A DNA stretch of 64,000 nucleotides from Panopea generosa (taxonomy: Eukaryota; Mollusca; Bivalvia; Adapedonta; Hiatellidae): contig CM055897.1 in the NCBI GenBank assembly GCA_029582155.1, positions 8,954,001 to 9,018,000 on the forward strand, given 5' to 3'. Below the pieces are notes generated by a model. The model was not told the DNA's origin, searched no databases, and worked only from the letters and a program-made list of their open reading frames with translations. Positions within the stretch are counted from its first letter, which is position 1. The number at the start of each line of letters is the position of its first letter. Below are positions 10,801-57,110 of this stretch, piece by piece. The position numbers were made by a program, and so were the translations under genes.

Positions 10801-11711
10801 ATTGTTTTTAAATTATTAAATTTGGGTCTAACGTCAAACAGAAAAAAATGTATTTAAAAATACAAATTAATTTAAAAGTTGAGAATGTGTTACTATTATT
10901 CAACAAGTAAGATATAATATGTAAACGTTTAAAATGGGTTATCGTCATTCAACAAGTAAAAATATAATATGTAAACGTTTAAAATAGGTTACCGTCATTC
11001 AACAAGTAAGATATAATATGTAAACGTTTAAAATGGGTTACCGTCATTCAACAAGTACAAATATAATATATAGACGTTTAAAATGGGTTACCGTCATTCA
11101 ACAAGTACAAATATAATATGTAAACGTTTAAAATGGGTTACCGTCATTCAACAAGTACAAATATAATATGTAAACGTTTAAAATGGGGTACCGTCATTCA
11201 ACAAGTATAAGTATAATATATAGACGTTTAAAATGGGTTACCGTCATTCAACAAGTACAAATATAATATGTAGATGTTTAAAATTGGTTACTGTCATATA
11301 ACAAGCACAACTATGATATGTAAAAGTTTAAAATTGGTAACTGTCATATAACAAGTAGAAATCTCTGTAAAACTTTAAAATATATTACGATCATTAAGCA
11401 TATACAGATAAATGTAATGTTTAAAATAGCTTACTGTCATTTGACAAATACAGATAAATGCATAAAATTAAAATGTGTTTCTATCATTTGGCAAATACAA
11501 ATTAATGTCCATGTTACTTACATTTGACAAATACAAATAATTGTAAAAAATGAAAACATAGTACTATCACTTGACAAATACAAGTATAAGTACAGTTTTT
11601 TTTTGTTTAAGCTACAGCATACTTACTCTTCAGTATTTCCTGCCGCTTTACACAAACGCACTGTGTTGCCAAGAAGATCCATACCAACGACTTTACGTAG
11701 AATGATTCCAT
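7489..11711 (-). CDS. Secreted protein of unrecognised family (gene, 4 coding exons)
   Basis: Joining 11711-11627, 9824-9745, 9106-8980 and 7856-7489 gives 660 bases, 219 residues and a stop, with matching phases (1, 0, 1) and GT-AG borders. The first about 20 residues (MESFYVKSLVWIFLATQCVC) are a good signal peptide, so the product is probably secreted. The mature part has six cysteines, one in each of exons 2 and 3 and four in exon 4, enough for three disulfides. Short motifs include GWLINIGDSATNNGY, GDSGTQSNDAEAD and a C-terminal DIYVAINRVVGS. No membrane segment follows the signal. I do not recognise the family; a mollusc-specific extracellular protein is an inference. It is transcribed away from the receptor gene; the two start codons lie about 2.6 kb apart. 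Confidence 0.8.
8356..8430. repeat. Near-perfect hairpin, about 31-bp arms
   Basis: The left arm (gttaatcggaacatcgctcg...) and right arm (...cgagcgatattctgattgac) are inverted copies around a 13-base centre (ctacgtacgaaaa). It lies in intron 3 of the minus-strand gene. It looks like a tiny MITE or solo foldback. Confidence 0.7.
8980..9106 (-). CDS. Secreted protein gene, exon 3
   Basis: Acceptor tgcattccag, 127 bases, donor GTAAGT. It encodes VDFGAISTDRCPNNKLKIKL onward, through an alternating hydrophobic/basic strand-like region and the motif GWLINIGDSATNNGY. Phase 0 to 1. Confidence 0.75.
9745..9824 (-). CDS. Secreted protein gene, exon 2
   Basis: Acceptor tttaaacag, then 80 bases in phase 1 to 0, encoding STLAGLEVISDPISQTEICS and TQTVVK; donor GTATAT. 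It contains one cysteine. It joins in frame to exon 3. Confidence 0.7.
10870..11590. repeat. 50-bp minisatellite in intron 1 of the secreted-protein gene
   Basis: About nine well-preserved units of 50 bp lie between 10890 and 11340 (core 'gggttaccgtcattcaacaa'), then more diverged, shortened units continue to about 11590. Decay toward one edge is clear. The array ends only about 35 bp from the donor of exon 1. Confidence 0.85.
11627..11711 (-). CDS. Secreted protein gene, exon 1 (signal peptide)
   Basis: ATG at 11711 gives MESFYVKSLVWIFLATQCVC, then a basic stretch VKRQEILK. The exon ends before a strong donor GTAAGT (acttac at 11621-11626 on plus), in phase 1. This frame was preferred over another open frame because it supplies a start codon and signal peptide and matches the phase of exon 2. 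Confidence 0.75.
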
Positions 11712-14397: not shown

Positions 14398-17300
14398 GTA
14401 AGTAATAATAACATTAACTCTTACTTTCTGTGAATATTATGAAATCACTGGGAATAATATTAATTGATGGAGTTTAAAACACGTTATAGTGTAAGGTTAT
14501 AAAGGTCAACATTTTAACAAAGTACGGAAAAAAGGCCAATAACAATTTCAGTATTGTTCAAAATACAGACAGCAATTACCAAAATCTGATTCCCATTTCG
14601 TTACAGTTGTAGTTGTTCATGATTTATTTCTAGTTTAATATTGATACTGATACAAAAAGTGGTTTGACTGTTTATATTTTACAAGAAGTTGCCACTGACA
14701 TGGTCATATCCCCCGCCACCTAATTAACCCTTAGAGGCATTTCCAGAGAAGTGGATTTTAATTATGCAAAATGAAAAATTCGCCGAGCACAGAAATCACA
14801 TGTAATTGCCGCAAACTGAAATATGTAGCCGACTGTAAGATGACACATTGTCTTGTCCAAGTGAGCACTTGTGTGATGTTCTAAATCGAACCATAAATAT
14901 GTAAGTTATAACCCCAAAACAAAAGAAAAACTTTCTTTGACGAACAGACCTAAATCATTCGCATGCCACATCGTCTTGTGCTGGTTAGCATTTGTGCTAA
15001 TTTATTTAAAAATCCAATCACAACTAAAGAAGATACGGTCCGGACAGCAGTGGACGGACGGACGAAGCTGTGTCCTTGACCTTTAGAAAACAGATCCAAG
15101 TCAATCGCATTACATATCATCTTGTTCTAGTTAACATTTGTGCCAAGTTATTTAAAATTCCAATCACAACTAAAGAAGATAATGTCCGGACAGCAGCGGG
15201 TGGGCGGACGGAGCTGTGACATTGACCTTTGTCGCATGACATATTGTCTTGTCATAGTAAACATTGGTGCCAAGTTATTTAAAAATGCAATCACAACTAA
15301 AGAAAAACGGTCTGGACAAGACGAAACACAGTGTATACATTTAAAATTCCAATCACAACTAAAGAAGATAATGTCCGGACAGCAGCGGGTGGGCGGACGG
15401 AGCTGTGACATTGACCTTTGTCGCATGACATATTGTCTTGTCATAGTAAACATTGGTGCCAAGTTATTTAAAAATGCAATCACAACTAAAGAAAAACGGT
15501 CTGGACAAGACGAAACACAGTGTATACATTGGATTTTCAAACACTTGACCTTAAGCTATGACATTGGCCTTTGACGAGCAGACCCAAGTCATTCGCATGA
15601 CACATCGTCATGTCCTAGTGATCGTTTGTGCCAGGTTATTTAAAATTCAAATCACAACTAAAGAAGATAAGGTCAGGACAGCAGCGGAGGGACGGATGGA
15701 GCTATGAGCTTGACCTTTGATGAACAGAACCAAGTCAGTCGCATGACACATCTTCTTGTCCTAGTGAACATTTGTACCAAGTTATTTAAAAATGCAATCA
15801 CATCTAAAGAAAATACGGTCCGGACAGGACGAAACACAGTGTATACATTGAATTTTCAAACACTTGACCTTGTGTTATGACCTTGACCTTTGACAAACAG
15901 ACCCAAGTCATTCGCATGACACATCGCCTTGTCCTAGTGAACATTTGTGCCAAGTTATTTAAAAATGCTATCACAACTAAAGAAGATACGGTCCGGACAG
16001 GACGAAAACACAGTGTATACATTGGATTTTCAAACACTTGACCTTAAGCTATGGCCTTGGCCTTTTACGAACAAACCCAAGTCATTCTCATGACCTTGTC
16101 AATATTTTTAGCAAGTTGTTTAAAATACGGTGCGGACAGCAGAGGACGCACAGACGGACGGACGCAGCCCATTTCTATATACAAAAATGGATTAACTCAA
16201 TTATTTCGCATCGATTGATTAATTTTTGTTTTATAAATCACTCACTTATCCATCCATCCATCATTCTTCGTATATATATATTTTTTTATTATTGTTTCAG
16301 GAGCACTGCTTCATGGACCAGCACATACTGTAGAAGAGCACATTAGTATCTACGACATTAATGTGACAGTTATCTGGCATTACATAGACGATGGTGGACA
16401 GTTCTACAATGTATTCAAAACAGGTTAGTTGTGAGAATAAATATTTGCAAGGAGATACATTTATCTCTGAATTCATGTCATTTAGAAAAAACTGCTTCAC
16501 GGTAAGAATTGCCTTCAGATAAACACATGCGTATCACCTTTACTTGATTTAAGATTTATTATCTCTGTGTTTATATCTATATACAAACATTAACAAAAGC
16601 TTTCAGATAAATGTACATATTTCTTTCTGGAATCACTGTATATTGAATTTATAGATATATTATATTCACTCATTTTAAACATGCTTTGAAGATAATATTA
16701 CTATGAATAAAAATTTGCAATTTAAATTATGTAATATTTCATTCTGTTGAGGGTGACATTTGTATTGTCAACGTGAGGAAATTACTGTTAACCGAGATGA
16801 AAGTGAGGTTGAAGTAATTGTCCGAATGTTGACAATATTACTGTCTCACTCCAGAGATTGTTTTTACTGACAAAATATTTAATGTTACAATTTAGTAAGT
16901 ATAGTTAACCATCATGTATATTGTTTGTTTGCACTATACGAGTAACACTTGTACAAAGAAGGTCATTTGAGTAGACTGATACCCTTTGAATATGCTCGTA
17001 TTTTAATATGTTTACTACCCATAACTGCATTAAGAAGACCTCTTTAATAGATTTATCAGCCATAACTGTAATATGAATACCTCTTTATAGATTCATTACT
17101 ACTTACCAAATGCTTTAAGAAGACGTTTTTAACAGTGTTACCCATCCATAACTGTATTAAGAAGACCTCTTGCGTAGATTTACCACCCCAACTTATTTAA
17201 GAAGACTCCTGAATAGGTTTACCACCAACTATGCATTAAGAAGTATTTTCAATGGATTTACTACGCCAAATGCATAAAGAAGACCTGTTGAATAGATTAA

Positions 17301-20300
17301 CCACCCACAAATACATTAAGCTAACCTCTTGAATAGCTATTCCACACACAAATGCATTAACAAGTCCTTTTGAATATATAAACCATCCACAACTGCATTT
17401 AGCAGACCTCTTGATATATTAACCACCTACAACTGTATTAAGAAGTTATTTTGAATAGATTTACCACCCACAAATGCATTATTATGACCTCTTTAATATA
17501 CGTGCCACCCTCAAATGCATTAAAATACCGTAAATAATCATCTGAAAGTACGTGTGTTAAATGGACCGATTTGATATATTTACCATATAAATTGCATTTA
17601 GATGACCCTTTGTGTGCATTTATCAACTTCAATTACATTAAGAAGGCACCTTGATTAGACTTACAATTCATAACTGTATTACCAGGATCGCTTGAGTAGA
17701 TTTACCATCCACTAGTGTAATATATCAACCCCCTTGAGTACATTCGCAAAGACCCGTTGGGTAGAATTACCGTCGACAATTATATTAAGAGGACAACTCG
17801 AGTAGATTTATCATTCACACTTACATTTAGAGGTCTCTTTCCGTAGATTTATAATCATAAGCTGCGCAAAGAAGACACCTCTTATAAACATATCATTCAC
17901 ATCTGCGAAAACCCATTGAATATACCTTCTATCCACATCTGCATCGAGATGACCCTTAGAACAGAATTCACATCCACATCTGAATTATGGAGACTCCATT
18001 ACTAAGTTTAACAGTGACAACTGCATTAGGGGGACCAGCTGAGTAGATTTACCATATTCAAAACTGCATTAACGGAACCCAACACCTGAATGTTACCATC
18101 AGCAACTGCATCACGTGTAAAATTGTTCCTTTAATAGACAATTGACCTGACGCGAGGTGTCAATCAAACACGTCGATATTCAAATCACCGATCGATATTT
18201 GTTGCAATGCCGCCATCTCCTTAGACAAGCTAATGGAGTCTAAGTAGACAGTACATTGTATCTACTTGGAAAAATAATGCCACATGACCAGTGGGTGGAG
18301 AAATAGTCGTTCTTGAATCAAATCCACTGTATTAAATGTATCTGAAATTAGCACGTACAATCATTCTAAGACCAAAATAAATAATGTTATTTCACATAAA
18401 TCATACAGTGTGATACATTTGCGCATTGTGCTTTTTAATATATTGATTATTGACTCTGTCATTATTTAACTTTTATATCATACTGAAGATGAATACAGTT
18501 TCGATACCACGCAGTAAAACACAACTTGGCCCTTACTAATGTATGCATGTATTTCCACTGAACACTATGTCAATTTTAAATGTTTATAGTTGCATCTGTG
18601 AACTATGATGGCACTGAACATACGAGTTCGTATAGTAGTTTATACGAAATTCTCGAACTAATTTGCTAAGAAAAGATTACCAAAGTATGCCGTAGGTGAA
18701 CACAACAAAAGCATTTAATATATAAATATCTTTGAGAAATGTTTCTGCAGCAATCACTTTCTTTGTGTGTTTGTTGTATCTTTATTACTTTCTCCAATTT
18801 TATCCTCTTTACTTCTCTGTTATGTGTTTGTCTGCTTGCCTGACAGCATGTTTGCCTTCTTGGCCTGTTTTCTCTCTCTCTGCTGGACTGTATACCTGCC
18901 TCCTTACGCTATCGCCTATCTGCTTGCCTGGCAGCATGTTTGCCTTCTTGATCTGTTTTCTCTCTCTGCTGGATTGTATACCTGCCTCCTTGCGCTATCG
19001 CCTATCTGCTTGCCTGGTAGCATGTTTGCCTTCTTGACCTGTTTTCTCTCTCTGCTGGACTGTATACCTGCCTCCTTGCGCTATCGCCTATCTGCTTGCC
19101 TGACAGCATGTTTGCCTTCTTGACCTGTTTTCTCTCTCTCTGCTGGACTGTATACCTGCCTTCTTGCGCTATCGCCTATCTGCTTGCCTGACAGCATGTT
19201 TGCCTTCTTGACCTGTTTTCTCTCTCTCTGCTGGACTGTATACCTGCCTTCTTGCGCTATCGCCTATCTGCTTGCCTGACAGCATGTTTGCCTTCTTGAC
19301 CTGTTTTCTCTCTCTCTGCTGGATTGTATACCTGCCTTCTTGCGCTATCGCCTATCTGTTTGCCTGACAGCATGTTTGCCTTTTTGACCTGTTTTCTCTC
19401 TCTGCTGGACTGTTTACCTGCCTCCTTGCGCTATCGCCTATCTGCTTTCCTGGCAGCATGTTTGCCTTCTTGACCGGTTTTCTCTCTCTCTGCTGGACTG
19501 TATACCTGCCTCCTTGCTCTATCGCCTATCGGCCTGGCTGGTTATCTTAATCTCATTGTTTTCACTCAAAGATTTACCTTCTGTAATATGTTAAACTTAA
19601 TTAATTATCTTTGGACTGTATACAGTCAATATGTTGCAATTGCTAAAGTTAAAAGGAAATGGTTCAATTTTCAGTCGGCATCGTAGAAACCTGTTTTGTT
19701 TGATCATACCAATTAATTGAATCGAATCCATCATTACAAAGAGCCGTATCCGATGCGCAGTACTTGTAATGATAAACATGCTTGTATACAAATTAATGTA
19801 TTTCCGGTTTCAGTTTGTGTTCTAGAAGATGATGATCATGTTGACGTCATTGTGTTACTAGATGTCAATTTCGCTAATATTCTAAATTGGAAGTCTGTCC
19901 AGAAAACGTATAATAAAACTTTAATATGGTGGGGAGAAGAGACAATTCAAGGCCAGTTCTGGGGAGATTCTATACAAGAGCATTTATTTCTAGTATGTTC
20001 TTTTCTTTAATTATTACAGCAATACTTGATCTATGCTTATATTACACGTGCCTTAATTATTGAAATACTACATTTCCTAATACCAAAAAAAAATGTCTAT
20101 TCGGCATATAACAGTATACAGTGCCATACAATTGGAGATCTTCCATAAAAAAAGTGGGATTGAAATTTGTTAGATTTTTAGCCAATAGATCAATAAAGTA
20201 CAGTATAACTTCGATGTCTCGAACCGACGGAACTGGACAATATAGTTTGAATCAAGGGTTGTTCGAGATAAGTAGTGTTTAACAGCATACCATACATGCA

Positions 20301-23300: not shown

Positions 23301-26300
23301 CATTACGGGAAATAGGAGCAGTTACAAAATAATATGTTGCATTGGATACTTAACTATTTGTGCTTGTTTTGGTGTAACATGGTTACTTTTTAACCTGTTT
23401 CTTGTATTGGGACACAACAAACACTGTAACCCATAATCTCAGAATATTGAATACTGAACGTACAACATCTCATTTGCCGCTTTCATTCAATCACAATTTA
23501 CAGGGAGTGATTACAAAATAACCACAGTGACTATATTTGGTTCCACACCACAAGGTACTGTAAACTGTATTAATATTATCATAAGGGTCCTACGTGACCG
23601 AGTGGTCTACGCCGTCTCAAGATCACTTACCACTCACCGCCAAGGTCGTAGGTTCGTGTCCCGCTCGCTCCAAAAACATTATGTGAAAAGTTTCCAGTTA
23701 CTTGCGGAAAGACAGTGGCTCTACTCAGTCTGACACAGAGATCTTCCTCCACCAGTATGGATATGCCATATATAACCTGACTCGGTCTGGGGTCTTCCTC
23801 CAACAGTATGGATATGCCATATATAACCTGACTCGGTCTGGGGTCTTCCTCCACTAGTATGGATATGCCATATATAACCTGACTCGGTCTGGGGTCTTCC
23901 TCCACTGGTATGGATATGCCATATATAACCTGACTCGGTCTGGGATCTTCCTCCACCAGTACGGATATGCCATATATAAATTGAAATGTGTTGAAATTGG
24001 CGTTAAACTCCATTCATATTATCATTTCTTATCCAGTAACATTTCGTTGTATTTAACTAACTGTTGAAGGCAAATTTCTGTATAAATTGTTTTTAACAGT
24101 ATTGGGTATATTGTGATGATCACCTTTCTCGCATGTGGGATATTATTGTTCGAACCCTGGTATTTCATATGTTAAAACGTAAATATGATACACAGGATTA
24201 GATCGTATAGGATGATAGCTCTGGTATTTAATATTCCCTTATCGGGTGGTTATGACGCTTGTATTATACAATGTGCCTGTGATACCGTGTTTCATTTTGT
24301 CAGATATATACGAAAGTGTAAGAAGCTAACTGATATACTAAATATAAGTATTGATATGTTCCAATGGATGTTACACAGACTTGCATAACAAGAGATTCTC
24401 CATACGACCCAAATGCCTCATTAAACTTCTGAAATGCACAATTTTCGATAATAACAAACATGATTGCAATTATTAATAGTATTGTTAAAACACCTTAATG
24501 ACTGTTTTTAAAAAGCGTGAAATAAATAACTTCGATCGAAATGTGTATTTCATAAACGAGCAGACCGAGATTTTAACTTTTATTTACATTTTTATAATGC
24601 GGAATGACTCGGTTGCTTTTCGACTGTACCTCCGCCAATGTTCAGAAGCACACAAATGAATATATGTATTTTGATGCACATTAATCAGATTCTCAGATTC
24701 GGCAAATAAGATATAGAAAACAGAAATATACATCATTTTATGATCATCAGAACATTACAATGGTACAAAGGGCTGTTTGTTGAGTATAGTTATTAAAAAG
24801 TAATTTTGTTTTTAATTTTATATAAACTATTCGCTGTTTCCGTGCGATGTTTTTACTGATAGACAATCAAGGCCTCAGGTTGGGTTTTGTGGCGTATGGA
24901 TATTCAAAATAAAGTGTCACAACAGTTGAAAAAATAACGCTGTTTTCCTTAATATCGAATGTTTTATACTAAACCGCGAGCATTCGAAACTCTTATAACG
25001 ATATGCATTGTAGCACTGTTCACTGTTCATAGTATGATAGCAGTATAACCAAATATCACATGCGTACGTGACTGAAGGCATTACACTTTGCCTGCAGCTG
25101 ACGAAATACACGGATCTCACAAGTCAGATTAATAAGGATTACACATTCATTGAAGAGATTAACGTCTTTCGGTTTAATGCCAATACTTAAGTACACATAA
25201 ATTATCTTATAAATATTAATAATCAAATTATTAATTGTACTAGAGGAATACAATGCGTCATATATAATGATAACCGGGAACCACTCCAAGCAGACAAATT
25301 AACGCAACTATAGCGTTACCGAAAACGCACAAACAATATATGCACAACTGGACTTTATACTAAAATTCCGTACCAAAATTACCAAAAAAATCGGTTAAAT
25401 AGGAGTTGTGCTGATAATTTTAACAAATCAAAGTACTAAAAGGGCAATAACTCCACTAAACGCCGATTGACAGAAGCGCGTTTGCGATATGTGCAATTAG
25501 ACGTCATACTGATACGCCCTGGAATGTTTGGTTAAAATCAGTTTGGGAGAAAGTGTAACGTACATATACTTACTGTAAAATAATTTCACTTCCTAGCAAA
25601 TTTGACTAAAATAGGTTGCGAAATTTGGGAGGAGATAAGATGAGCTGACAAAAATGTGTGGTAGATATATGTACACAGGTTTACTATTAAAACAATAAAA
25701 TGGACATAGTTAAGCCAAAAATCGATGAACCGGAATGCAAAAACGACATTAGATGTCATACCGATACCGACCCAGCAAGGTTGAACAAAACTAGTCAAGC
25801 AGTTTAGGAGAAATGGAGCTAACAAAAATGTCATTTATCATTAAAATAAAGGATCATTACTCTGTCAAATGCCAATAGGCTAGACAACGATGACGTTACA
25901 ATGTAATTGGAATTAATGTTGATGCACTTACTTCGACAGGTTTAGTGAAATCGATTTAAATGTTTCGGAGGTGTAGAGCTGACAAGAAAGTGTGACATAT
26001 GTGAAACATGTTCTGACAAAACACTTCAGTATTTTACTTAGGAAAATAAAACTGTAGTTTAGCAGACTGACATAATGAACATAAACAAATCTTTGATATA
26101 TAAAAGCATGTTCCTTAATAATGTTTATAAGATATCATGTCTTAAAACAAATTAACATGAAATTGAAACGAACAAAGTGTAGCCAGTCACAAACAGCCGC
26201 TTTTGCACATATGCTGATCAAGTGGACATTTTTATTTTAATCCAGTTTTCCAGCAGGGTCAAATATCGTCCTATCAACTTTCTAGCAATAAAACAAGTGA

Positions 26301-29609: not shown

Positions 29610-32600
29610 CTTAAGCTCTGCAAATTCCTGAGCAAAAACTTCACAACTTAAAAAGTGCAAAATTTTACCTACAATTCATCCAGTCTAACAAACATTGATA
29701 TGTTATCAAAATGATTTGCACTTATTGTAATGTATAAATTATAAAGCAACAATATATGTTTAATTGAATGCTGAAGTTAATTAATTGTTGATAAGTGCAT
29801 AAAAAACAATCCAATTGTCATAAAACATTCCGCTTTGAATCTTTTATCTGACATTGTAAACGTATTGTTTTTGAAAAGAAAGTAATACTTTATTGATGTA
29901 TATAAACATTAAATAATTATTCTTATTGCAGGTCTTAATAATGAGCAGTTAAGTATTATAGTTGATTGAAAAAAAGACAAAAAAGGAAAAAAATAAAAAC
30001 ACTCTGGGGGAGGGGATGTGGATTGATATAGTTAATTACTGAGTCTACAAAAATAAATGTATTTGTAATCAAACATATGTGTCTTAATTAAAACTGAAAG
30101 AGAAACATGTAAAATGTTTCAAATTTGTATCAAGATATTAGTGGCTTATAATCATTCCAAATAATATCAAAAGTGTGTACAATTTATTGTTGCAATATAC
30201 CGTTCTGTATAATACAGATTTATAATATGTTTCTTAAAGTTGTCAAGTGTAGGTTTAACTGTTTTAAGTTTCTGAGTGTAAAAAAATTTCTTTGCAATTA
30301 ATATTATTTTATTCAAAACTTTGTCAAAAATTCGATTTTCGAATATAATGTCTGTATTTGTCCAATTTAAATAATGCCTATACATTTTTCGCGAATATGG
30401 TTCATCAAACACGAGAAAAATTGTTTAGAAATGTCACATTCGATAAAAATATGTTTAATTGTTTCTATTTCTCTGTTGCATAAACTGCAAACAAAAATCA
30501 GAATCCTTATTTTCATATTTTAAGAAGAGAATTGGGTCCTAATATTTGATGGTTCATTCTGTAGTGAAACCATTGTTAATTTGTGCCATTTGTCATGTTT
30601 AATGGAAGGCAGTAAAATTTGGTTTCAACTAAATTGGTTCTTATATCCAAATCATTTTCCAATTTAGTAACGGATTGAGGGATTATATTTTCTTGTATAC
30701 AAGATAGATAATTTGCCCTATATCCTTTTGTATCTTTCATAATTATTGATATTGATAAAGGGCATGTAGGTGCTCCTCCATTACTAGCTAAATGAACAAT
30801 TGAAAGTTTAGATAACTACCTTTTAACAGATGCTATCAATCCTTCTTCATATTCTATGAAGTTTGTATTTATGTTGTATCTACTAATAAAACCAACCATC
30901 GAGTAGAAATTACCATTTACATCATAATATCATTTATCAATAAAACACCCTTAGAGAACCAATTGTTATAAAATAAACATGTGCCTCCAACCTTAATGTT
31001 TGGGTTAAACCAAATTGATTTTTTTAAAATGTGTACCAATTTGCAGGCTTTGAATATGTTTGATAACTTCTAAAAACATCTTTTCAGAAGGGATTATGTA
31101 TTCTGTTTATGTGTCTACTTATAAAATCTGGGCCATATGCGCCATCATTTGACATGAATGGGTACATTGAATTAAATATCTCTAGATATTTTTTTTTGAG
31201 TTTAAAAGGCGTCTTATCCTTGTGTGTTTTAATGAGTTAATAAAAAGGTCTATATCATACATTGTGAGACCCCCTTTTATGTAAGAGTTGCAAAGAGTAG
31301 TTTTATTCACCTTAAATAGTTTACCATTTCAAACAAGTTTAAAAAATAAACTTTTAGTCTCTTTAATATTATCTGAGTTAGGGTTTGGTAGAGCTAAGAT
31401 AAGATGATTAATTTTTGATATGGTTAAACTTTTTAAGATTGTTATTTTACCAATTGGCGTAAATATTCGTTTTGACCAATGGATAAGAAGTTGTTTTATA
31501 TCATGTTTCTTATCATCAAAGTTCACATTAATCATTTTGTCTAGATCTACAGAAAATCGAATACCAAGGATATACGAGGATCTCTGCACATAAAATGAAT
31601 ATATAGTAAATAAAAGAATAAATTTTAAAAAAAAAATAAAGATTTTTTTCATTAATCCAATAATATCTAATGGTGAAATGAGGTCAAAATAAACAAAAAC
31701 AAAAATGATGTAAATGCATAAAATATAAAAAAAACTTTGTTTGTTTTGGTTTAAAATCTAATGATATTTCATCTCGTGATCACAAAAAATTGATGTTGCA
31801 ACTCATTGCAAGCCACCCGGGAGAATATGACAACTTAAACATAAAACGATCTTACACCAAAACAAACAAATCCACTATATATCTACTATGTAATTGTTTA
31901 GTTTCGGTTACAATGTTCTTTATACTTAGCGTCATTACCTAATAAAACTATGTTTTGAATAAAATATAGCTTATTATATAGTTCTTTAAGTTACATGTAT
32001 AATATCGTTAATATGTTATTAATAAATACGATATATATCCGATAAGAAATAGAACTAACTTTAAATAAATTATGATGAAGGGTAAGTATGAGTGTTTGTT
32101 CGGATACTTAGTAATAGTTTTAGTGGAAATCAATTGATTACTCATAAACTGACGGTTGCTTATTTTCAAAAAATGTAATTGCCGACATGTTTTTATATGC
32201 TTAACAATGTATATGTCAATTTGCCTGTTTCATCGTTGCAGTATCCACCATACGTTGTTAAGACAACGGTAAATGGCACAATCAAATATACAGGATTCTG
32301 TCTTGATATTCTAAAAGAACTATCACGTAACTTAAATTTCACGTACGTATTTAATTTATTTCGAATTCGTAGTATCTATGATTTAGTAATGAAAGGTTTG
32401 TTCAGTTATGCCCTATTTTTATATATAGAGGCTCTTACATGAGTGCTCATTTATTATTGAATTTATTAAACGAAATTACAAAATTATATTATGCGAGGCT
32501 CTGCCGAGCGTTATATCATTTTTTGCCAATGAGTTTAACAAATTGAATAATTACTGTTCACGAATGTAAAATTAGATTCTTTTAATCACATAACTCGGAA

Positions 32601-35600
32601 TAACAATACATTTACCATTTATTATGTTGATAAGGAACGAGAAAAGGTCCGGCATATTTGTTTTCGTCATTAGTTGTATGACGTAACATCTCAAAATAAC
32701 GTCATTAACTGTGACAAATCGACGTCATTGATATCTGCCGGAAAGTGGAAATGTAGTTCGGCATTTTGCGTATGAAAGCCGAGTTATAGAAAACACCGAA
32801 CGATGAATCGGAAGTGATATTATTAAAAATATGTCATGGGTTTATTACACTCCTGCACCGTAAATTATGTGATAAAGTGATATATCTTATTGGATGCAGC
32901 ATAAGTAACTATTTGTGACTGGTTGGTATGAAAACAATCACGGGTTTGGGAATAGTTTCTGATATTTATACCTTTATAAATTTGCTTTATTTATTTCCTA
33001 TATCTCGTTTACAGTTAGTAGTCCAAGGTTTAAGCATCCCCGGATGTTTTATAGATTTTAATTTATTTCAAAATTAATATCTTTAGTGAAAAAATAATGT
33101 AAATGTTACTAGACTCTATGGTAGCCATATGATTCAATTCTCAATTCAGTTATAGTATAACAGAACCAGTTGATAACGCCTATGGGATGGTGGTGGAGCC
33201 GGAATCCATGCAGTTTAACGGCTTAATAGGACAGTTGCAAAGAAATGTAAGACATGATAACTCTATGTTATACAACACATTTTGAATTATCCTTTTTAGG
33301 TACTATACAGATATATATCTAGTCCGGTTGTGATAGTTTGATCCTGCTGGTATAATAAAAGTCAATAACTTATGTTCGGTGTTACATGTACCACTAGTGA
33401 GTTGTAAGAATTTTGTAAGAATAAAGGCTGTAGGAATCACAAATTTAATATTATTTTGACGATTAAAAGATTAGCTTCATCTCTATTTTCATGATTTTTT
33501 TCATGATTTATTTTTCAATCTGTCTTAATATTTTTCTTATAGAATTGTCTAAGCTGATTTGGAATGATATATCGAATCTACCAAATTGTGACTTGAATGG
33601 CAATTCATTTTGAGCAGTAAACTTGAAACGAAACAATTAAAAATAGACAGCACTTAGAAAAAGCTTTATGACCTTCACATCGTCATTCGGATTCTTTTCA
33701 AGATGAAAAGAATTCTCAAATATGAAAACCAGAATTAAAGATCAATATGAAATCGTGTGACTCATTTGACACGTCACAAAAACGTTGCAATTTCAAGAGT
33801 CAATCTGATCACCTCGGCCTTTATGCAACGCATGTGTATTACACGGAGGATACAGAAATACCCGATGTTACACGAATGTTTCCAACGTGAGATCTGTTTT
33901 GGTCTCACTTACTTAAGAAATCCCTTTTCAGTATTTTATTTTGGCATGTTGAAATGCTAATAAAATATGTTCATAATATATATTCTTATTGCAATATGGG
34001 ATCGGTAATTATATGCAGGCATGTTGTATAGGATCAAATGTTTCAGCCAATTTTAAAATTTGGAAAATTCCTGACTACAGGTTTTTCTAATTTTTATCTA
34101 TGATTATTTCTTCGATTTTTTCATTTAGAAAAGTTGTTAAAGATTTTCCACAACAGGAATATATTCGTTCTAAAGATATTTTACCTTGACCTCTGTCATA
34201 CATTTTGTATATGTCACAGGAAGTGGACATGATTGTGTCTGACGTGGCGATACAGCGAGACAGAGAGCAAGTGATGGACTTCACTTATCCTTTCTACTTT
34301 GGCTACTCCACTGTCATGGTGAAAAAGTATGACCCCAACCAGTATAGATGGAAGAAACTTCTGGAACCATTCAGGGTGCGTGAAACAAGGTTCGAGTATT
34401 GATCTGGTATACTACATTGGTATTACAGACTGCTGTTTGCTATAACACTTCCCCAAGAACCCTGTGTAAAATTAACATCACTGAAAATGATTTAAAACAC
34501 ACATTAAGATGTGTATCCCTGGTGAATTATTGTCCATAAGCTAGATTTGCAATTTTATCACCTAGGTTAAATCATGAAAATTTAAAAAAAATAAATAAAT
34601 AAATTGATACAGATACCTATAGTGAATTAAATCACATCCTGAACATTCTGTTTTTATACTCATATGGGCATGGCTTGTGCAGTATTTAACAAGATGTCCG
34701 TAATATATTATAATATAGATATAACTGGCATCTAGTCTGTAGACCGGTCCAAATACTCCCGTTTGTGTCCGTCAAATAGCAATTTTAGGAAAGCCACATA
34801 TGAGCACGTTGATTTGCCAGTTGCCCCAACTGCAAGTTTTAATGACGTCACAGTTTAGTAAGTTAATATACTACTTGTCAAAATGGAGTACTGCTGTAAC
34901 ACAAAACGTTGTGAAAGGCTAACTGGTATTTTTAAGTGCAATTATAAGCATTTTATTGACACGTAGATTGAATATAATGATAGTGTTACTTATTTTATTG
35001 ACGCGTAGATTGAATATAATGATAATGTTACTTAATTCGGTTATTAAATTAGATGATCAAAATAGCTATTGACATTTTAATGTTTTGCTGATATAATGCA
35101 CAATTGGTTTTTCGATACTTAAAAATACATTTAAATGAATAATATTAATTAAAAAAAACAACTCCGGTTATACATCCGGATCCGGTTAGCTCAGATAGTA
35201 GCGCTAATGACTATCAAGCCAGTTTTCGTGAGATTGAATCCTCGTCCGATCAAAGTATCAGTGATAATTTATATATGACATTATGTCTCGTTTTCATTCA
35301 TCTCTCCGCACCTCTGACTCAAATGGAAATGTTATCAGTTACTTGCAGAAATTGGTGTGATTAAGTACTAGGATCCTAATGAGTGGTCTGTTAGCACTTG
35401 ATGACAAAACAGAAACGAGGCTAAAAGTCTGTTTTATATTGTGTAAAGATTTTGTGTTATACTTTCTATATGTATTAATCTACATTTGGTATTTAGTGGG
35501 AAGTGGTTGCGATGCTCATCGGAATGCTTCTACTGGCGGCCCTTGTTATACACCTGTTAGAGAAGCACAACCCCTTCAATGAACACGAAACGAAGCATGT

Positions 35601-38600
35601 CCAACCAAACTGCCATAACTGTCGGGTAAATAAGTGTGGTTTCCTAACATACACCGGATCCCTCATGTGGCTTTTTGGAATTATTAGCAATGAAGGTACA
35701 GTATGAAAAGAGATTAATGAACAGGGTGGCAATTATTAAAAATTGCAATTCATTATAATGACAATTCTATACTGGAAAACAATCAAGGTTCACAGGAATG
35801 CATCACTGACAGACTGATAAAGACCTAATTAACTTATGCAGAACAGTGTAGGATTACAAGCACAATGATGTGTTTATTTAGTTATAACTTAAATTATGTT
35901 TAAACTTGCTATGCCTTGTTACTTTTGATATGATACAAACCGTTTAGGGATAATTGTGGGAGTCAAAGGTTCAATATGTAAATATTATATCGATTTATTA
36001 TAAAACCCTAAATGTGTTTATCCCGAGGGCTATAGTTTCAGGCGTACATATATTTATATACTATTCCATAAGTAGTTGTGACATTATATGTGTCGTACAG
36101 TCAATTGTACCTTTCTATATATAACATTACTTACATTTCTAAATCGTTAAGATCGAAATCAGCGAAAACAAGAATACCATTTCTATTTGAAGTTAAATAT
36201 CGAGACTTTATGTACATAATGTATGTGTGATTATAGATTTAATAAATTGTAAGAACTTGAGCTAAATGACGTGTTTGAGAGCTTTATGTGCTTTTGTTTT
36301 TGTTTTGTTTGGTATACCTCGATTGTGATACAAGTTTATTACAACTCCCTTCTTAGGGCAAGCGCTCCGATATTGTTAATCATTATAAACTTCAAACAAT
36401 CATATTTAATTAGAAAGTTTTTTAAATGCTTCTGAAAAATCAGTACCAGGCCCCGGTTTCACAAACATGCTTATGTCTCTTATTTTACTATTTTACTCAA
36501 TAGTGTGTTCAATTTTATACTTAAATTGAGGACACTATATGAGTTTAAGTAAAATAGCAGACTTAAGAATTTTTTAAGAAACCGGGCCCTGCATTATATC
36601 ATTATGTGGTCACTTCATTGTTAAGTTGTCTTCCTATACAGGTAACGTCCACATGCCTGGATCTGTAGCTGGTCGTACATTTGTGAGCAGTTGGACTTTG
36701 TTCTGCGTCGTCATCATAGCGACCTACAGCGGCAACTTGATCGCCTTCCTCACCGTCACCAAGGACAAGTTCCCCTTTAACTCTCTACTTGAAATGTCAA
36801 GGAAAGACGACACGTATAAATGGGGAACAATTGGCGGGTCGGCATGGGAACAGGTCCTAACGGTAAATATGTCATATCTCTAAACAATAGTGGATCTAAA
36901 TGAGAACGAGTCCTAACGGTAAATATGTCGTATTTCTGAACAATAGTTGGATCTGAATGGGAACGAGTCCTAACGGTAAATATATCGTATTTCTGAACAA
37001 TAGTTGGATCTGAATGGGAACGAGTCCTAACGGTAAATATGTGGTATCTCTTAACAATAGTTGGATCTGAATGGGAACGAGTCCTAACGGTAAATATATC
37101 GTATTTCTGAACAATAGTTGGATCTGAATGGGAACGGGTCCTTACGGTAAATATGTCGTTTCTGAACAATAGTTGGATCTGATTGGGAACGGGTCCTAAC
37201 GGTAAATATATCGTATTTCTGAACAATAGTTGGATCTGAATGGGAACGGGTCCTAACGGTAAATATATCGTATCTCTAAACAATAGTTGGATCTGAATGG
37301 GAACGAGTCCTAACGGTAAATATGTGGTATCTCTTAACAATAGTTGGATCTGAATGGGAACGAGTCCTAACGGTAAATATATCGTATTTCTGAACAATAG
37401 TTGGATCTGAATGGGATCGGGTCCTAACGGTAAATATGTCGTTTCTGAACAATAGTTGGATCTGATTGGGAACGGGTCCTAACGGTAAATATGTCGTATC
37501 TCTGAACAATAGTTGGATCTGAATGGGAACGAGTCCTAACGGTAAATATGTGGTATCTCTTAACAATAGTTGGATCTGAATGGGAACGAGTCCTAACGGT
37601 AAATATATCGTATTTCTGAACAATAGTTGGATCTGAATGGGATCGGGTCCTAACGGTAAATATGTCGTTTCTGAACAATAGTTGGATCTGAATGGGAACG
37701 AGTCCTAACGGTAAATATATCGTATTTCTGAACAATAGTTGGATCTGAATGGGAACGGGTCCTAACGGTTAATATGTCGTATCTCTGAACAATAGTTGGA
37801 TCTGAATGGGAACGAGTCCTAACGGTAAATATATCGTATTTCTCAACAATAGTTGGATCTGAATGGGAACGAGTCCTAACGGTAAATATATCGTATTTCT
37901 GAACAATAGTTGGATCTGATTGGGAACGGGTCCTAACGGTAAATATATCGTATCTCTAAACAATAGTTGGATCTGAATGGGAACGAGTCCTAACGGTAAA
38001 TATGTGGTATCTCTTAACAATAGTTGGATCTGAATGGGAACGAGTCCTAACGGTAAATATATCGTATTTCTGAACAATAGTTGGATCTGAATGAGATCGG
38101 GTCCTAACGGTAAATATGTCGTTTCTGAACAATAGTTGGATCTGAATGGACACGGGTCCTAACGGTAAATATGTCGTATCTCTGAACAATAGTTGGATCT
38201 GATTGGGAACGGGTCCTAACGGTAAATATGTCGTATCTCTGAACAATAGTTGGATCTGATTGGGAACGGGTCCTAACGGTAAATATGTCGTATCTCTGAA
38301 CAATAGTTGGATCTGATTGGGAACGGGTCCTAACGGTAAATATGTCGTATCTCTGAACAATAGTTGGATCTGAATGGGAACGAGTCCTAACGGTAAATAT
38401 GTCGTATCTCTGAACAATAGTTGGATCTGAATGGGAACGGGTCCTAACGGTTAATATGTCGTATCTCTGAACAATAGTTGGATCTGAATGGGAACGAGTC
38501 CTAACGGTAAATATATCGTATTTCTGAACAATAGTTGGATCTGAATGGGAACGAGTCCTAACGGTAAATATATCGTATTTCTGAACAATAGTTGGATCTG

Positions 38601-41600
38601 AATGGGAACAGGTCCTAACGGTAAATATATCGTATTTCTGAACAATAGTTGGATCTGAATGGACACGGGTCCTAACGGTAAATATATCGTATTTCTGAAC
38701 AATAGTTGGATCTGAATGGGAACGGGTCCTAACGGTAAATATGTCGTTTCTGAACAATAGTTGGATCTGATTGGGAACGGGTCCTAACGGTAAATATGTT
38801 GTTTCTCTAAACAATAGTTGGATCTGAATGGACACGGGTCCTAACGGTAAATATATCGTATTTCTGAACAATAGTTGGCTCTGAATGGGATCGGGTCCTA
38901 ACGGTAAATATGTCGTTTCTGAACAATAGTTGGATCTGATTGGGAACGGGTCCTAACGGTAAATATGTCGTTTCTGAACAATAGTTGGATCTGAATGGGA
39001 TCGGGTCCTAACGGTAAATATGTCGTTTCTGAACAATAGTTGGATCTGAATGGGAACGAGTCCTAACGGTAAATATATCGTATCTCTGAACAATAGTTGG
39101 ATCTGAATGGGAACGGGTCTTAACGGTAAATATATCGTATCTCTGAACAATAGTTGGATCTGAATGGACACGGGTCCTAACGGTAAATATATCGTATCTC
39201 TGAACAATAGTTGGATCTGAATGGGAACGAGTCCTAACGGTAAATATGTCGTTTCTCTAAACAATAGTTGGATCTGAATGGACACGGGTCCTAACGGTAA
39301 ATATATCGTATCTCTGAACAATAGTTGGATCTGAATGGGATCGGGTCCTAACGGTAAATATGTCGTTTCTGAACAATAGTTGGATCTTATTGGGAACGGG
39401 TCTTAACGGTAAATATGTCGTATCTCTGAACAATAGTTGGATCTGAATGGACACGGGTCCTAACGGTAAATATATCGTATTTCTGAACAATAGTTGGATC
39501 TGAATGGGAACGGGTCCTAACGGTAAATATGTCGTTTCTGAACAATAGTTGGATCTGATTGGGAACGGGTCCTAACGGTAAATATGTTGTTTCTCTAAAC
39601 AATAGTTGGATCTGAATGGACACGGGTCCTAACGGTAAATATATCGTATTTCTGAACAATAGTTGGCTCTGAATGGGATCGGGTCCTAACGGTAAATATG
39701 TCGTTTCTGAACAATAGTTGGATCTGATTGGGAACGGGTCCTAACGGTCAATATGTCGTTTCTGAACAATAGTTGGATCTGAATGGGATCGGGTCCTAAC
39801 GGTAAATATGTCGTTTCTGAACAATAGTTGGATCTGAATGGGAACGAGTCCTAACGGTAAATATATCGTATCTCTGAACAATAGTTGGATCTGAATGGGA
39901 ACGGGTCTTAACGGTAAATATATCGTATCTCTGAACAATAGTTGGATCTGAATGGACACGGGTCCTAACGGTAAATATATCGTATCTCTGAACAATAGTT
40001 GGATCTGAATGGGAACGAGTCCTAACGGTAAATATGTCGTTTCTCTAAACAATAGTTGGATCTGAATGGACACGGGTCCTAACGGTAAATATATCGTATC
40101 TCTGAACAATAGTTGGATCTGAATGGGATCGGGTCCTAACGGTAAATATGTCGTTTCTGAACAATAGTTGGATCTTATTGGGAACGGGTCTTAACGGTAA
40201 ATATGTCGTATCTCTGAACAATAGTTGGATCTGAATGGGAACGGGTCCTAACGGTAAATATGTCGTATCTCTAAACAATAGTTGGATCTGATTGGGAACG
40301 GGTCCTAACGGTAAATATGTCGTATCTCTAAACAATAGTTGGATCTGATTGGGAACGGGTCCTAACGGTAAATATATCGTATTTCTGAACAATAGTTGGA
40401 TCTGAATGGGAACGGGTCTTAACGGTAAATATATCGTATCTCTGAACAATAGTTGGATCTGAATGGACACGGGTCCTAACGGTAAATATATCGTATCTCT
40501 GAACAATAGTTGGATCTGAATGGGAACGGGTCCTAACGGTAAATATGTCGTTTCTCTGAACAATAGTTGGATCTGAATGGACACGGGTCCTAACGGTAAA
40601 TATATCGTATCTCTGAACAATAGTTGGATCTGAATGGGAACGGGTCCTAACGGTAAATATGTCGTTTCTGAACAATAGTTGGATCTGATTGGGAACGGGT
40701 CTTAACGGTAAATATGTCGTATCTCTAAACAATAGTTGGATCTGATTGGGAACGGGTCCTAACGGTAAATATATCGTATTTCTGAACAATAGTTGGATCT
40801 GAATGGGAACGGGTCTTAACGGTAAATATATCGTATCTCTGAACAATAGTTTGATCTGAATGGACACGGGTCCTAACTGTAAATATATCGTATCTCTGAA
40901 CAATAGTTGGATCTGAATGGGAACGGGTCCTAACGGTAAATATGTCGTTTCTCTGAACAATAGTTGGATCTGAATGGACACGGGTCCTAACGGTAAATAT
41001 ATCGTATCTCTGAACAATAGTTGGATCTGAATGGGAACGAGTCCTAACGGTAAATATGTCGTATTTCTGAACAATAGTTGGATCTGAATGGGATCGGGTC
41101 CTAACGGTTAATATGTCGTATCTCTGAACAATAGTTGGATCTGAATGGGAACGGGTCCTAACTGTAAATATATCGTATCTCTAAACAATAGTTGGATCTG
41201 ATTGGGAACGGGTCCTAACGGTAAATATATCGTATTTCTGAACAATAGTTGGATCTGAATGGGAACGGGTCTTAACGGTAAATATATCGTATCTCTGAAC
41301 AATAGTTGGATCTGAATGGACACGGGTCCTAACGGTAAATATGTCGTATCTCTAAACAATAGTTGGATCTGAATGGGAACGGGTCCTAACGGTAAATATG
41401 TCGTATCTCTAAACAATAGTTGGATCTGATTGGGAACGGGTCCTAACGGTAAATATGTCGTATCTCTAAACAATAGTTGGATCTGATTGGGAACGGGTCC
41501 TAACGGTAAATATGTCGTATCTCTGAACAATAGTTGGATCTGAATGGGAACGGGTCCTAACGGTAAATATGTCGTATCTCTAAACAATAGTTGGATCTGA

Positions 41601-44600
41601 TTGGGAACGGGTCCTAACGGTAAATATATCGTATTTCTGAACAATAGTTGGATCTGAATGGGAACGGGTCTTAACGGTAAATATATCGTATCTCTGAACA
41701 ATAGTTGGATCTGAATGGGAACGGGTCTTAACGGTAAATATATCGTATCTCTGAACAATAGTTGGATCTGAATGGGAACGGGTCTTAACGGTAAATATAT
41801 CGTATCTCTGAACAATAGTTGGATCTGAATGGACACGGGTCCTAACGGTAAATATGTCGTATCTCTAAACAATAGTTGGATCTGATTGGGAACGGGTCCT
41901 AACGGTAAATATGTCGTATCTCTAAACAATAGTTGGATCTGATTGGGAACGGGTCCTAACGGTAAATATATCGTATTTCTGAACAATAGTTGGATCTGAA
42001 TGGGAACGGGTCTTAACGGTAAATATATCGTATCTCTGAACAATAGTTGGATCTGAATGGACACGGGTCCTAACGGTAAATATATCGTATCTCTGAACAA
42101 TTGTTGGATCTGAATGGGAACGAGTCCTAACGGTAAATATGTCGTTTCTCTGAACAATAGTTGGATCTGAATGGACACGGGTCCTAACGGTAAATATATC
42201 GTATCTCTGAACAATAGTTGGATCTGAATGGGAACGGGTCCTAACGGTAAATATGTCGTTTCTGAACAATAGTTGGATCTGATTGGGAACGGGTCTTAAC
42301 GGTAAATATGTCGTTTCTCTAAACAATAGTTGGATCTGAATGGGAACGGGTCCTAACGGTAAATATATCGTATTTCTGAACAATAGTTGGATCTGAATGG
42401 GAACGGGTCTTAACGGTAAATATATCGTATCTCTGAACAATAGTTGGATCTGAATGGACACGGGTCCTAACGGTAAATATGTCGTATCTCTAAACAATAG
42501 TTGGATCTGAATGGGAACGGGTCCTAACGGTAAATATGTCGTATCTCTGAACAATAGTTGGATCTGAATGGGAACGGGTCCTAACGGTAAATATATCGTA
42601 TCTCTGAACAATAGTTGGATCTGAATGGACACGGGTCCTAACGGTAAATATGTCGTATCTCTGAACAATAGTTGAATCTGAATGGGAACGGGTCCTTACG
42701 GTAAATAGGTCGTATATCTAAACAAAAGTTAGATCTGAATGGGAACAGGTCCTAACGGTAAATATGTCGTATCTCTGAAAGAAAGTTAGATCTGGATGGG
42801 AACAGGTCCTTACGATGAATATGCCATGTCTTTGGATGATTGACGTGAGTTACTCTTAATTCCAGTGCTGTGCCACAAATAACAGATGGTATAGATTTTT
42901 GTATAACGAATCGACTTAATAAACGAAACTATTATCGTTATGTTAAGGGATACAATTCCTATTTCTATCATATGTGCATACAAAAATGAGTTACTGTTCT
43001 CGATTCATTGTGCTTCACATTTGCTTTAAGATATGTTGCAATGCCTAAAGTAATTTCAGCATTATTTGATCTTATGTTTTAGTTGAGCAAACTTAATAAA
43101 TTTTAATTAGCTTACCATGGTCAGTTTAAACAGTTACAATGTAACTATAATCATTTTGATACGATATGTTCAAATATGTATCCTACACAACCAACTATTA
43201 CTGCCAGAGTAGTAAATACTTGTAAGAGGAGACTATCAAATTACAACGCTACACTTGGCTATCTACGGATGGTGTATTAACACAGATCCAAGCAGCTCCC
43301 TCGAATTGCAAACCTTTGGCAGTGAGAGTTAAACTTTTTCTATCTGCATACAAAAAAAAAAACTTGTCGTAATAATGTTTTTGCCAATTATATGCATTAA
43401 CAATAATCTAGTAGTATGCTAACTGATAACAAAAACAATGCATTGATGACTGTGAAATTTTGAAATTTGAATCATGTACTGAATTATATAAAACCTGTCC
43501 CCAGAGCCATCTTGCGGTTTTTATGTGGCAGTTGGAGCTTTAAAGTGCATATGTTACATACATCATGTTTATATGTATAGGACATTCAGTATCGCTGTTT
43601 GTCTATCTAACAGTAATGCTCGTACATATAGTTGTTTTCAGACTTCAGATCTACCAGAGTTTAAAGCTGTCGGTAATGCATTACGCAGGTTCAACATGTC
43701 CGACCCTACTGTACTTATTAAAAGTCAGGCCTATCATCTTCGAAGGGTACGTTTGACAATATTATAAAAACGTTGTATCATTTGTGGTTACAAAAGTACG
43801 CTGGTGATGTAGACGGCTGGTTTATAGAGGTATGATTCTGAATTTCAACATTCGGAAAATCACTATGGTATCTACTTGAAACGGCATGATTGATATTGGT
43901 ATTTATAATGCTGTCACTCTCAAGTATTATGTTACAACTAAAATTTGATAGCATTTCTTGTTTCTTCCTTACGCCCTTTTGTCTCATTTTTATTATTTAA
44001 TTGTTTCTTCAACGACATATGAATAGATTGTGTAAATGTCAATTGGAAACATGAATACTTGTACCATAAGAAATAAATACTTAAAAACAAACAAACAGAC
44101 ATTTTATATCATCTTAACAAGTGTAACATGAATACAGTTTTATGTTCAAAACGATTTTCTTATAAAACAGTCTACCAATAGCATAAACATTAAGTATACC
44201 ATATCGCAAAAAAAACACTATTAAAATTATGTCAGATATGAGAATTTTACGTACGAATTTTTGTCTCAATTTTGCGTAATCATTTTAGTCTCAATTTTAT
44301 GTATCAGTTTTGGTTTCCTTCTATAAAGTTATACTTTATAATAATTCTGATTCGATATACACTTTTTATTAAGATAGGTTACACATTCTATAACTAATTT
44401 GACGTTAGAAATCATACGCACGTCAAAGTTAATGTTATCAATAACAAGACAACTTGTTTACCATTGAAATGAAATAAAGGTATTTCACATACAAAATGTG
44501 ATATATAAGAAATGAAGTGTTAGATGTAGCGGTTCGTATCATATGCTGAAAGGATAAAAGAAATACATGGTGAACTTCAGAGCCACATTATTAAACTATT

Positions 44601-51506: not shown

Positions 51507-51515
51507 AAATACAAT

Positions 51516-51774
51516 CGGGCCGCGCCCGATTAGCTCAGTCGTCAGAGCTCCTGCCTATCAATCCGGGGTCATGGATTCGAATCCCCGCCCGGTAACAGTC
51601 TCCGTCATGATTGATATACGACATTGTGTCTCAATATCATTCGTCTCTCACCGCCGATTCAAGTGGGAAAGTTATCATTTACTTGCGGAGATGCTCGAGT
51701 ACTGGTTAACCTTCCAGGAAACAGTGGTTAGGTTAACTGATCGTCTGTTAGCCATTCAATCAATCAATCAAACA
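51516..51774 (+). mobile_element. Full-length tRNA-derived SINE with 9-bp target-site duplication
   Basis: A tRNA-like head (cgcccgattagctcagtcgt, B box ggattcgaatccccgcccgg) is followed by a body with 'gttatcatttacttgcggag' and a (caat)n tail. Flanked by perfect repeats aaatacaat at 51507-51515 and 51775-51783. The undamaged promoter boxes and duplication suggest recent insertion. Confidence 0.9.
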
Positions 51775-52308: not shown

Positions 52309-52383
52309 GAGAAGAAGAAGAAGAAGAAGAAGAAGAAGAAGAAGAAGAAGAAGAAGAAGAAGAAGAAGAAGAAGAAGAAGAAA
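52308..52383. repeat. (AGA)n microsatellite, about 25 units
   Basis: Uninterrupted AGA/GAA triplet run. Read as protein it gives poly-Arg on plus and poly-Phe on minus; neither is a gene. Confidence 0.95.
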
Positions 52384-56109: not shown

Positions 56110-57110
56110 ATATTATGATACGATATACCTAGATTATGATATGATTAACTTCGATATTGGAATGTTATATAGCGATTGTGACATGATTTACCTTGATATT
56201 GGTATGCTGTATATTGATTATGAGATCAACTAACTCGACAATCGTATGTTATATATCAATAGTGACATGATTAACTCGATATTCGTATACTTTATATCAA
56301 GAATGACACAACTTACCTAAATAATGGTATATTATATATCGACTGTGACATGATTTACCTAAATTATGGTATGTTATATTCGACTGCGACATGATTTATT
56401 TAAATAATCGTATGTTATATATCGAACTGTGACATAATTTACCGAAAAACGGTATATTATCTATCGATTGTGACATTATTTACCTATATAATCGTTTGTT
56501 ATATATCGATTGTGACATAATTTACCTAAATAATGGTATGCTATATATCGATTGTGACTTAATTAAGCTAATTAATGGTATGTTATATATCGATTGTGAT
56601 ATAATTTACCTATATTATCGTAAATATATACTGATTGTGACATATTTTACTTAAATAATGGTATGTTATATAATTGTGAAATAATTTATTAAATAATTGT
56701 ATGCTATATATCGATTATGAAATGATTAACCTAAATAATGGTATAGTATATATCGACTGTGACATAATTTATCGAAATAATGATATATTATATATCGAAT
56801 GTGACATGATTTACCTAAATAATCGTATGTTATATATCGATTGTGACATAATATATGACTGTAAATAATGATATTTTATATATCGATTGTGACATGATTT
56901 ACCTAAATACTCGAATGTTATATATCGATTGTGACATAATATATGGTATGTTATATATCAATTGTGACATGATTTACCTAAATAATCGTATGTTATATAT
57001 CGATTGTGACATAATTTACCTAAATAATGATATTTTATATATCGATTATGTCATGATTAACCTCGATAATTGAATGTTATATATTGATTGGGACATGATG
57101 TACTTTGATC
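56110..57110. repeat. 42-bp minisatellite, about 24 units
   Basis: Core 'atgttatatatcgattgtg' plus 'acatgatttacctaaataat'; the best-preserved part is 56330-57070. The period of 42 gives a 14-residue repeating frame that is not a gene. It lies between the two paralogous first exons. Confidence 0.88.

Follow-up and report, generated by a model that had tools for sequence, protein, structure and literature searches.

The closest described counterpart of the locus examined here is the variable number tandem repeat (VNTR) in intron 18 of human ABCA7, the first GT of which is the exon-18 donor (De Roeck et al. 2018, PMC5954066). According to the parts of that report on which we draw, the shortest observed allele has 298 bp and the longest 10,678 bp, corresponding to about 12 and 427 units. 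Retention of one unit affects 2 ± 1% of transcripts whatever the allele length, whereas exon 19, which is in frame, is skipped more often as the VNTR lengthens (PMC5954066). Another human minisatellite, that of 6-16/IFI6 (G1P3), provides multiple donors, and the available excerpt of its description states that two downstream repeat units are used and that three mRNA species occur (PMC4526556). In human genes located in segmental duplications, internal tandem repeats at exon-intron boundaries alter splicing; as far as the consulted portion of that work goes, these are mainly cases of novel introns that arise via activated cryptic splice sites in recently duplicated genes (PMC2812944). Here, we analysed a stretch of 64,000 nucleotides from the bivalve Panopea generosa (contig CM055897.1, positions 8,954,001 to 9,018,000 of the forward strand; hereafter the window), in which a 57-bp minisatellite of about 105 units starts inside an exon of a glutamate receptor gene and spans its 5' splice site.

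The clam array resembles the ABCA7 VNTR, so far as the latter is described in the parts cited above, in that it starts at the exon's own donor and is followed by an in-frame exon. Its first unit holds what sequence and homology indicate to be the canonical donor of the exon, and the later units retain donor-like sequence. The units differ: that of ABCA7 has 25 bp, is GC-rich and opens with GT, no exonic part being mentioned in those parts of the report, whereas that of the clam has 57 bp and includes 19 to 38 exon bases. In addition, polymorphism and RNA data are known for ABCA7, whereas the clam array, located in a mollusc receptor, is described here from the sequence of one assembly. For 6-16/IFI6, Turri et al. 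are said to have described in 1995 a 12-nt unit with which the protein isoforms lengthen in frame. The clam array is similar in that repeat units carry donor sequence, but the intronic part of its unit has a stop, so that later donors would truncate the protein. Introns can also be gained by tandem genomic duplication, in which a duplicated splice-like motif supplies both ends of the new intron. The clam array likewise appears to start with a short duplication over a splice-like motif; however, the acceptor lies outside the array, the acceptor end (43641) being 807 nt past the array end (42834), and this route was rejected. No mollusc case of this kind was among the titles and abstract openings listed by searches of the open-access literature, which were directed at bivalves in a single instance. 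The clam array is a striking new example, with a larger unit and exon sequence in its copies, of a phenomenon that is itself already known in human genes.

When the full window was scanned with Tandem Repeats Finder (TRF), the array obtained the top score (9958) among 38 rows, at 36844-42823 with a period of 57, 105.5 copies and 92% matches. Wrap-around alignment under one scoring scheme gave 36825-42834, with 105 full units and two edge pieces; 88 of the units measure 57 bp, 16 measure 55 bp and one measures 56 bp. Tandem units within the range of about 10-100 bp, a homogenised core and variant repeats mark the array as a minisatellite, and chance is excluded as its source. The original prediction, made from the sequence without database searches, had described a roughly 100-fold, 6-kb minisatellite whose unit starts inside the exon and spans the exon-intron border, with the real donor as the first of about 100 near-identical ones. 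All of this was borne out: the unit crosses the border between the exon (36642-36862) and the GT at 36863, and ACGGTAAAT is found 101 times on the + strand of the window, 99 times inside the array and otherwise only at 32266 and 47957. ACG|GTAAAT is thus identical in 99 array donors, namely the real donor and 98 decoys. The scoring of array donors that the prediction had proposed gave a matching picture under an approximate 5' splice-site weight matrix, since 99 of the 478 GTs in the array equal the score of the real donor and none exceeds it; by the same matrix, the real donor ranks seventh among the 13 donors of the gene model. The coordinates of the array and of the features around it are collected in Table 1.

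Table 1. Features of the array and its flanking exons, in positions of the window
Feature	Positions	Strand	Basis
Exon 12 of the original prediction, which codes for M3 and the beginning of S2	36642..36862	+	Homology; acceptor cag|GTAACG, donor ACG|GTAAAT; phase 1 to 0
Proposed 57-bp seed, 38 exon and 19 intron bases; first 19 exon bases uncertain	36825..36881	+	31/38 consensus matches; alignment phase
57-bp minisatellite, 105 full units and a partial last one, 98 decoy donors	36844..42834	+	TRF, wrap-around alignment, counts
Canonical donor GTAAAT, first of 99 identical ACG|GTAAAT	36863..36868	+	Residue count kept in 75/81 homologues; 9-mer counts
In-frame TAA that any transcript from a later donor would meet	36881..36883	+	Reading frame
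14-unit block, first copy, 788 bp	38659..39446	+	787/788 identity to 39447-40234
14-unit block, second copy	39447..40234	+	Recent internal duplication or assembly slip
Outermost, most diverged unit; donor lost; A8 and A30 as in the real-donor unit	42796..42834	+	Wrap-around alignment, unit comparison
Next exon, 105 nt	43642..43746	+	Gene model; phase 0 to 0

The possibility that a dispersed repeat had been inserted at the splice site was rejected, since the best matches of the unit elsewhere in the window by BLAST were exact matches of 11 bp (E 1.3 or worse; 11 of 118 high-scoring segment pairs lay outside the array). A degenerate pattern of the unit had no exact match in a viral collection, although viruses provide a weak control when the sequence comes from an animal. 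The idea that the array hides a protein was also dismissed: on the reverse strand, frames between stops extend to as many as 395 codons, but this is a mechanical outcome of the 57-bp unit, although homology was not sought.

The gene model, whose exons were joined by eye and by homology, comprises 737 codons including the stop and has an incomplete N-terminus. Pfam matches to Lig_chan-Glu_bd (90.9 bits, cut-off 30) and Lig_chan (70.2 bits, cut-off 30.8), both above their cut-offs, identify the product as an ionotropic glutamate receptor. Among the best 60 of 378 solved-structure matches, the best were AMPA receptors, and the closest of 81 proteins is from Mya arenaria (54% identity), followed by proteins from Mercenaria, Ruditapes, Mya and Mactra, an order that by itself makes a heterodont bivalve the probable source of the window. 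The original prediction had placed the exon end at 36862 and had named transcripts with a different end as the outcome that would overturn it. By homology this end stands, because the number of residues at the junction (17) is the same in 75 of the 81 homologues; the GluA2 alignment also runs across the junction without a gap. In the remaining six, P0022, P0025 and P0063 are longer, and P0061, P0069 and P0078 are shorter or lack the segment. An earlier exon end at CAG|GTCCTA would lose three residues and was rejected, since the full number is kept in those 75 homologues. Elsewhere in the model, the inferred donors at 26607 (TCA|GTAAGA, -0.66) and 27524 (AAA|GTATAG, -3.93) scored poorly with the approximate matrix, and these two exon ends may be wrongly modelled. 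A weak tblastn match (19810-19941, E 0.004) to residues 29-71 of a Mya receptor (P0013) is probably a further upstream exon that was left out of the model.

The explanation that we favour, at a probability of roughly 0.7, is that of a donor-seeded minisatellite, in which a duplication across the donor was expanded by turnover, the first donor is mostly used and a small leak is tolerated. A 57-bp segment consisting of intron and of 19, or perhaps 38, bases from the end of the M3 exon would have been tandemly duplicated across the 5' splice site, and slippage and unequal exchange would have brought it to about 105 units, with a homogenised core and the oldest units at the ends. The first donor would mostly be chosen, as it is transcribed first and defines, together with the upstream acceptor, an exon of 221 nt. 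Occasionally, one of the three donors that follow would be used instead, whereby the stop at 36881 would enter the mRNA, and the leaked mRNA would undergo nonsense-mediated decay (NMD) or yield a subunit truncated after M3. The likeliest measurable effect would be a small leak, to which the analogy with ABCA7 adds some skipping of the 105-nt next exon at a rate that would rise with array length. The array is most likely a tolerated, neutral expansion with a small leak. Its anatomy, the identity of its donors and the reading frame are read directly from the sequence, whereas the extent of the seed, the splice choice, the leak, the skipping and the neutrality are inferred.

The consequences of a wrong choice can be read from the frame. 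Any later donor would lengthen the exon by 56, 113, 170 nt and so on, to totals of 277, 334 and 391 nt compared with 221 nt, and the mRNA would read V-N-M-S-Y-L before the in-frame TAA, exactly as had been predicted. The receptor encoded by such an mRNA would end after M3, and NMD of these transcripts is expected. Exon definition may plausibly favour the first donor, as had been suggested, but the argument has less force than was claimed, as the totals are just 277-391 nt and length alone is therefore unlikely to exclude the first few decoys. Because the 9-mer is identical in all of the donors, what decides between them must be which is transcribed first, how each pairs with the acceptor upstream, or signals that lie beyond the shared unit.

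The structure of the array bears on its growth. On average, the first unit diverges from all others by 0.127, and the last three, of which the final one is partial, by 0.138, 0.151 and 0.260; the corresponding value for the core is 0.073. A block of 14 units is present twice, and a 2-bp deletion characterises the 16 units of the 55-bp variant; both the 788-bp duplication and the deletion fit ordinary minisatellite turnover. Of the 105 full units, 99 have the donor 9-mer without a change. It ranks joint fourth to sixth among the 57 nine-column windows of the unit and is no outlier, since six of these windows, the donor window included, are exact in at least 99 units. This comparison gave no sign of selection to keep the decoy donors, the test being weak either way because the units are not independent. 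A 788-bp block repeated at 787/788 identity is also a type of sequence in which assemblers can err, and the true array might be much shorter, or have been collapsed or inflated during assembly. However, the 105 units fall into 47 distinct types and the edges are diverged and ordered, unlike the outcome of a simple collapse or loop, and we regard such an artefact as quite improbable. The exact copy number in the genome could still be off.

Comparison of the exon with the unit provided evidence on the origin of the array. The original prediction had stated that each unit reproduces 19 exon bases; this number is certain as a minimum, the final 19 exon bases matching the unit at 18 of 19 positions, but it may understate the exonic share, which could be 38. 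In the exon block of equal length that precedes them, 13 of 19 positions agree in register with the consensus of the unit, giving 31 of 38 in all, whereas the three blocks further upstream match at only 6, 6 and 5 of 19. The binomial probability of the 13/19 match is 8e-5 (match probability 0.249), a value that is somewhat flattering since the block had been singled out by local alignment, and 3 of the 57,861 19-mers of the window outside the array are as good. In addition, the wrap-around alignment starts and ends at an identical phase of the unit. The 13/19 block, the drop-off upstream of it and the shared phase suggest a 57-bp seed at 36825-36881. The exonic share of the seed is at least 19 bases, and the balance of the sequence evidence tilts towards a seed with 38, two thirds exon and one third intron.

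The direction of this relationship is indicated by the protein. Because the W-E and G-T/G-G residues of the exon are common to many homologues, the exon is older than the repeat and was not overwritten by it. Its codons are TGG GAA CAG GTC CTA ACG, in which CAG encodes Gln; the reading TGG GAA CGG in the original prediction was incorrect, CGG or CGA being the state of nearly all core copies. CAG is kept in units 2, 106 and 107, plus 33, and A at column 30 occurs in units 2 and 107 only. Two states, A8 and A30, which few or no core units have, are common to the unit of the real donor and the unit furthest 3'. Such a distribution would be expected of an array whose ends are oldest and whose core has grown from a derived unit.

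Several points weigh against the explanation that we favour. The 13/19 consensus identity is the support for the upstream half of the exon part of the seed, and the edge units, which ought to be the oldest, match this block at only 9 (2 to 3), 12 (104 to 105), 10 (105 to 106) and 9 (106 to 107) of 19 positions; in the adjoining block, they match at 16 to 19 of 19. The use of the first donor is something that we infer. Moreover, SRSF1 favours the intron-proximal donor and hnRNP A1 the intron-distal donor, according to the portion of the source used, and such an SRSF1 preference would oppose choice of the first donor (PMC5585400).

The ABCA7 parallel can also be taken further, to an array that regulates receptor output, with copy number setting the use of later donors or the skipping of the next exon and individuals differing in functional and truncated subunits. 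In the similarly designed ABCA7 VNTR, longer alleles are associated with lower expression and more next-exon skipping, in the parts of the report cited here (PMC5954066), and the next exon of the clam gene has 105 nt in phase 0-0, so that its skipping would be in frame. The original prediction had proposed that leaky use of later donors lowers receptor output or yields truncated subunits. If the analogy holds, it predicts such a leak, at a small level, and, more importantly, length-dependent skipping of this exon, an effect not considered in the original prediction, which would remove 35 residues of S2 in frame. However, human and mollusc differ, unit retention in ABCA7 is unchanged with length in those same parts (PMC5954066), and the donor 9-mer is not kept above the rest of the unit. 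We consider regulation by copy number unlikely. Slightly less likely still is the fuller proposal that a ladder of 99 identical donors, its length varying between animals, tunes subunit dose via in-frame skipping and truncated products and shows directly how far downstream the cell looks for a donor at constant strength.

It was also conceivable that the decoys are harmless because each of them sits in a hairpin (ACGGTA/TATCGT), from which the real donor escapes through the A at 36874. The predicted unpaired probability of the 9-mer is 0.23 for the real donor compared with a mean of 0.039 for the 98 copies, three of which reach 0.23. Lowering the temperature to 20 and 12 degrees without changing the folding window left no copy at the level of the real donor, and with a smaller window five of the 98 reach it. 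With a larger window, however, 35 of the 98 are no less open than the real donor, and when positions +1 to +6 alone are considered, the number is 13 to 61 of 98, depending on the settings. Changing the A at 36874 to G in silico hardly altered the value (0.216 compared with 0.230). The copies, with a median of 0.021, are as open as GTs in general, the median of 887 of them from the rest of the window being 0.016, and values between 0.0 and 0.35 were obtained for the other donors inferred in the gene. The controls disfavour hairpin masking, though not under every setting, and we consider it scarcely probable at all.

A further suggestion of the original prediction was that the array binds U1 as a sink or as a landing pad that guards the long intron from premature cleavage and polyadenylation. 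The density of donors agrees with this idea, as the 99 array donors amount to 16.6 per kb, whereas the remaining introns of the gene model have 29 in 16.2 kb, or about 1.8 per kb, and AATAAA occurs directly beyond the array, at 42918 and 43095. The rest does not: the array contains no AATAAA or ATTAAA on the + strand that would have to be silenced, and the intron is long solely through the array. Since 807 nt of intron lie beyond the array, the intron would be about 0.8 kb without it, like its neighbours in the receptor gene (798, 803, 807 and 820 nt). The real donor would then lie within about 0.3 kb of both AATAAA signals, and therefore a protective role is not needed. We judge this role to be very improbable.

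Under the donor-seeded expansion that we prefer, the locus is of interest in two respects. How a cell chooses among identical donors has long been asked, and constructs with a few engineered copies are the usual means of study. The intron described here presents 99 sites that share one 9-mer and differ little in their flanks, so that distance from the exon is almost the sole variable. In addition, the ABCA7 kind of splice-donor VNTR, a risk factor for human disease, would also arise in a mollusc, and its units can retain the exon part of the donor.

Other repeats were also present in the window. Two stretches, at 51510-51600 and 35181-35260, resemble what we take to be heads of tRNA-derived short interspersed nuclear elements (SINEs) (TTAGCTCAG; GGATTCGAATCCC in 51510-51600). 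No tRNA was found in the window by ARAGORN (bacterial code), and Rfam gave no hit of any kind at gathering scores, the SINE-like stretches included. The window is rich in further minisatellites; those detected by TRF include 10861-11362 (50 bp x 10), 17011-17523 (41 bp x 12.6), 18831-19530 (88 bp x 8), 23742-23979 (51 bp x 4.7) and 56132-57103 (42 bp x 23). Judged by coordinates, no other TRF row overlaps a modelled exon within the gene model (20941-46176). A 189-bp unit occurs twice with 100% identity at 15150-15530, inside a larger, diverged region of 146-bp/173-bp repeats, and this duplication is very recent. Finally, TRF identified a perfect (AGA)24 microsatellite at 52310-52382.

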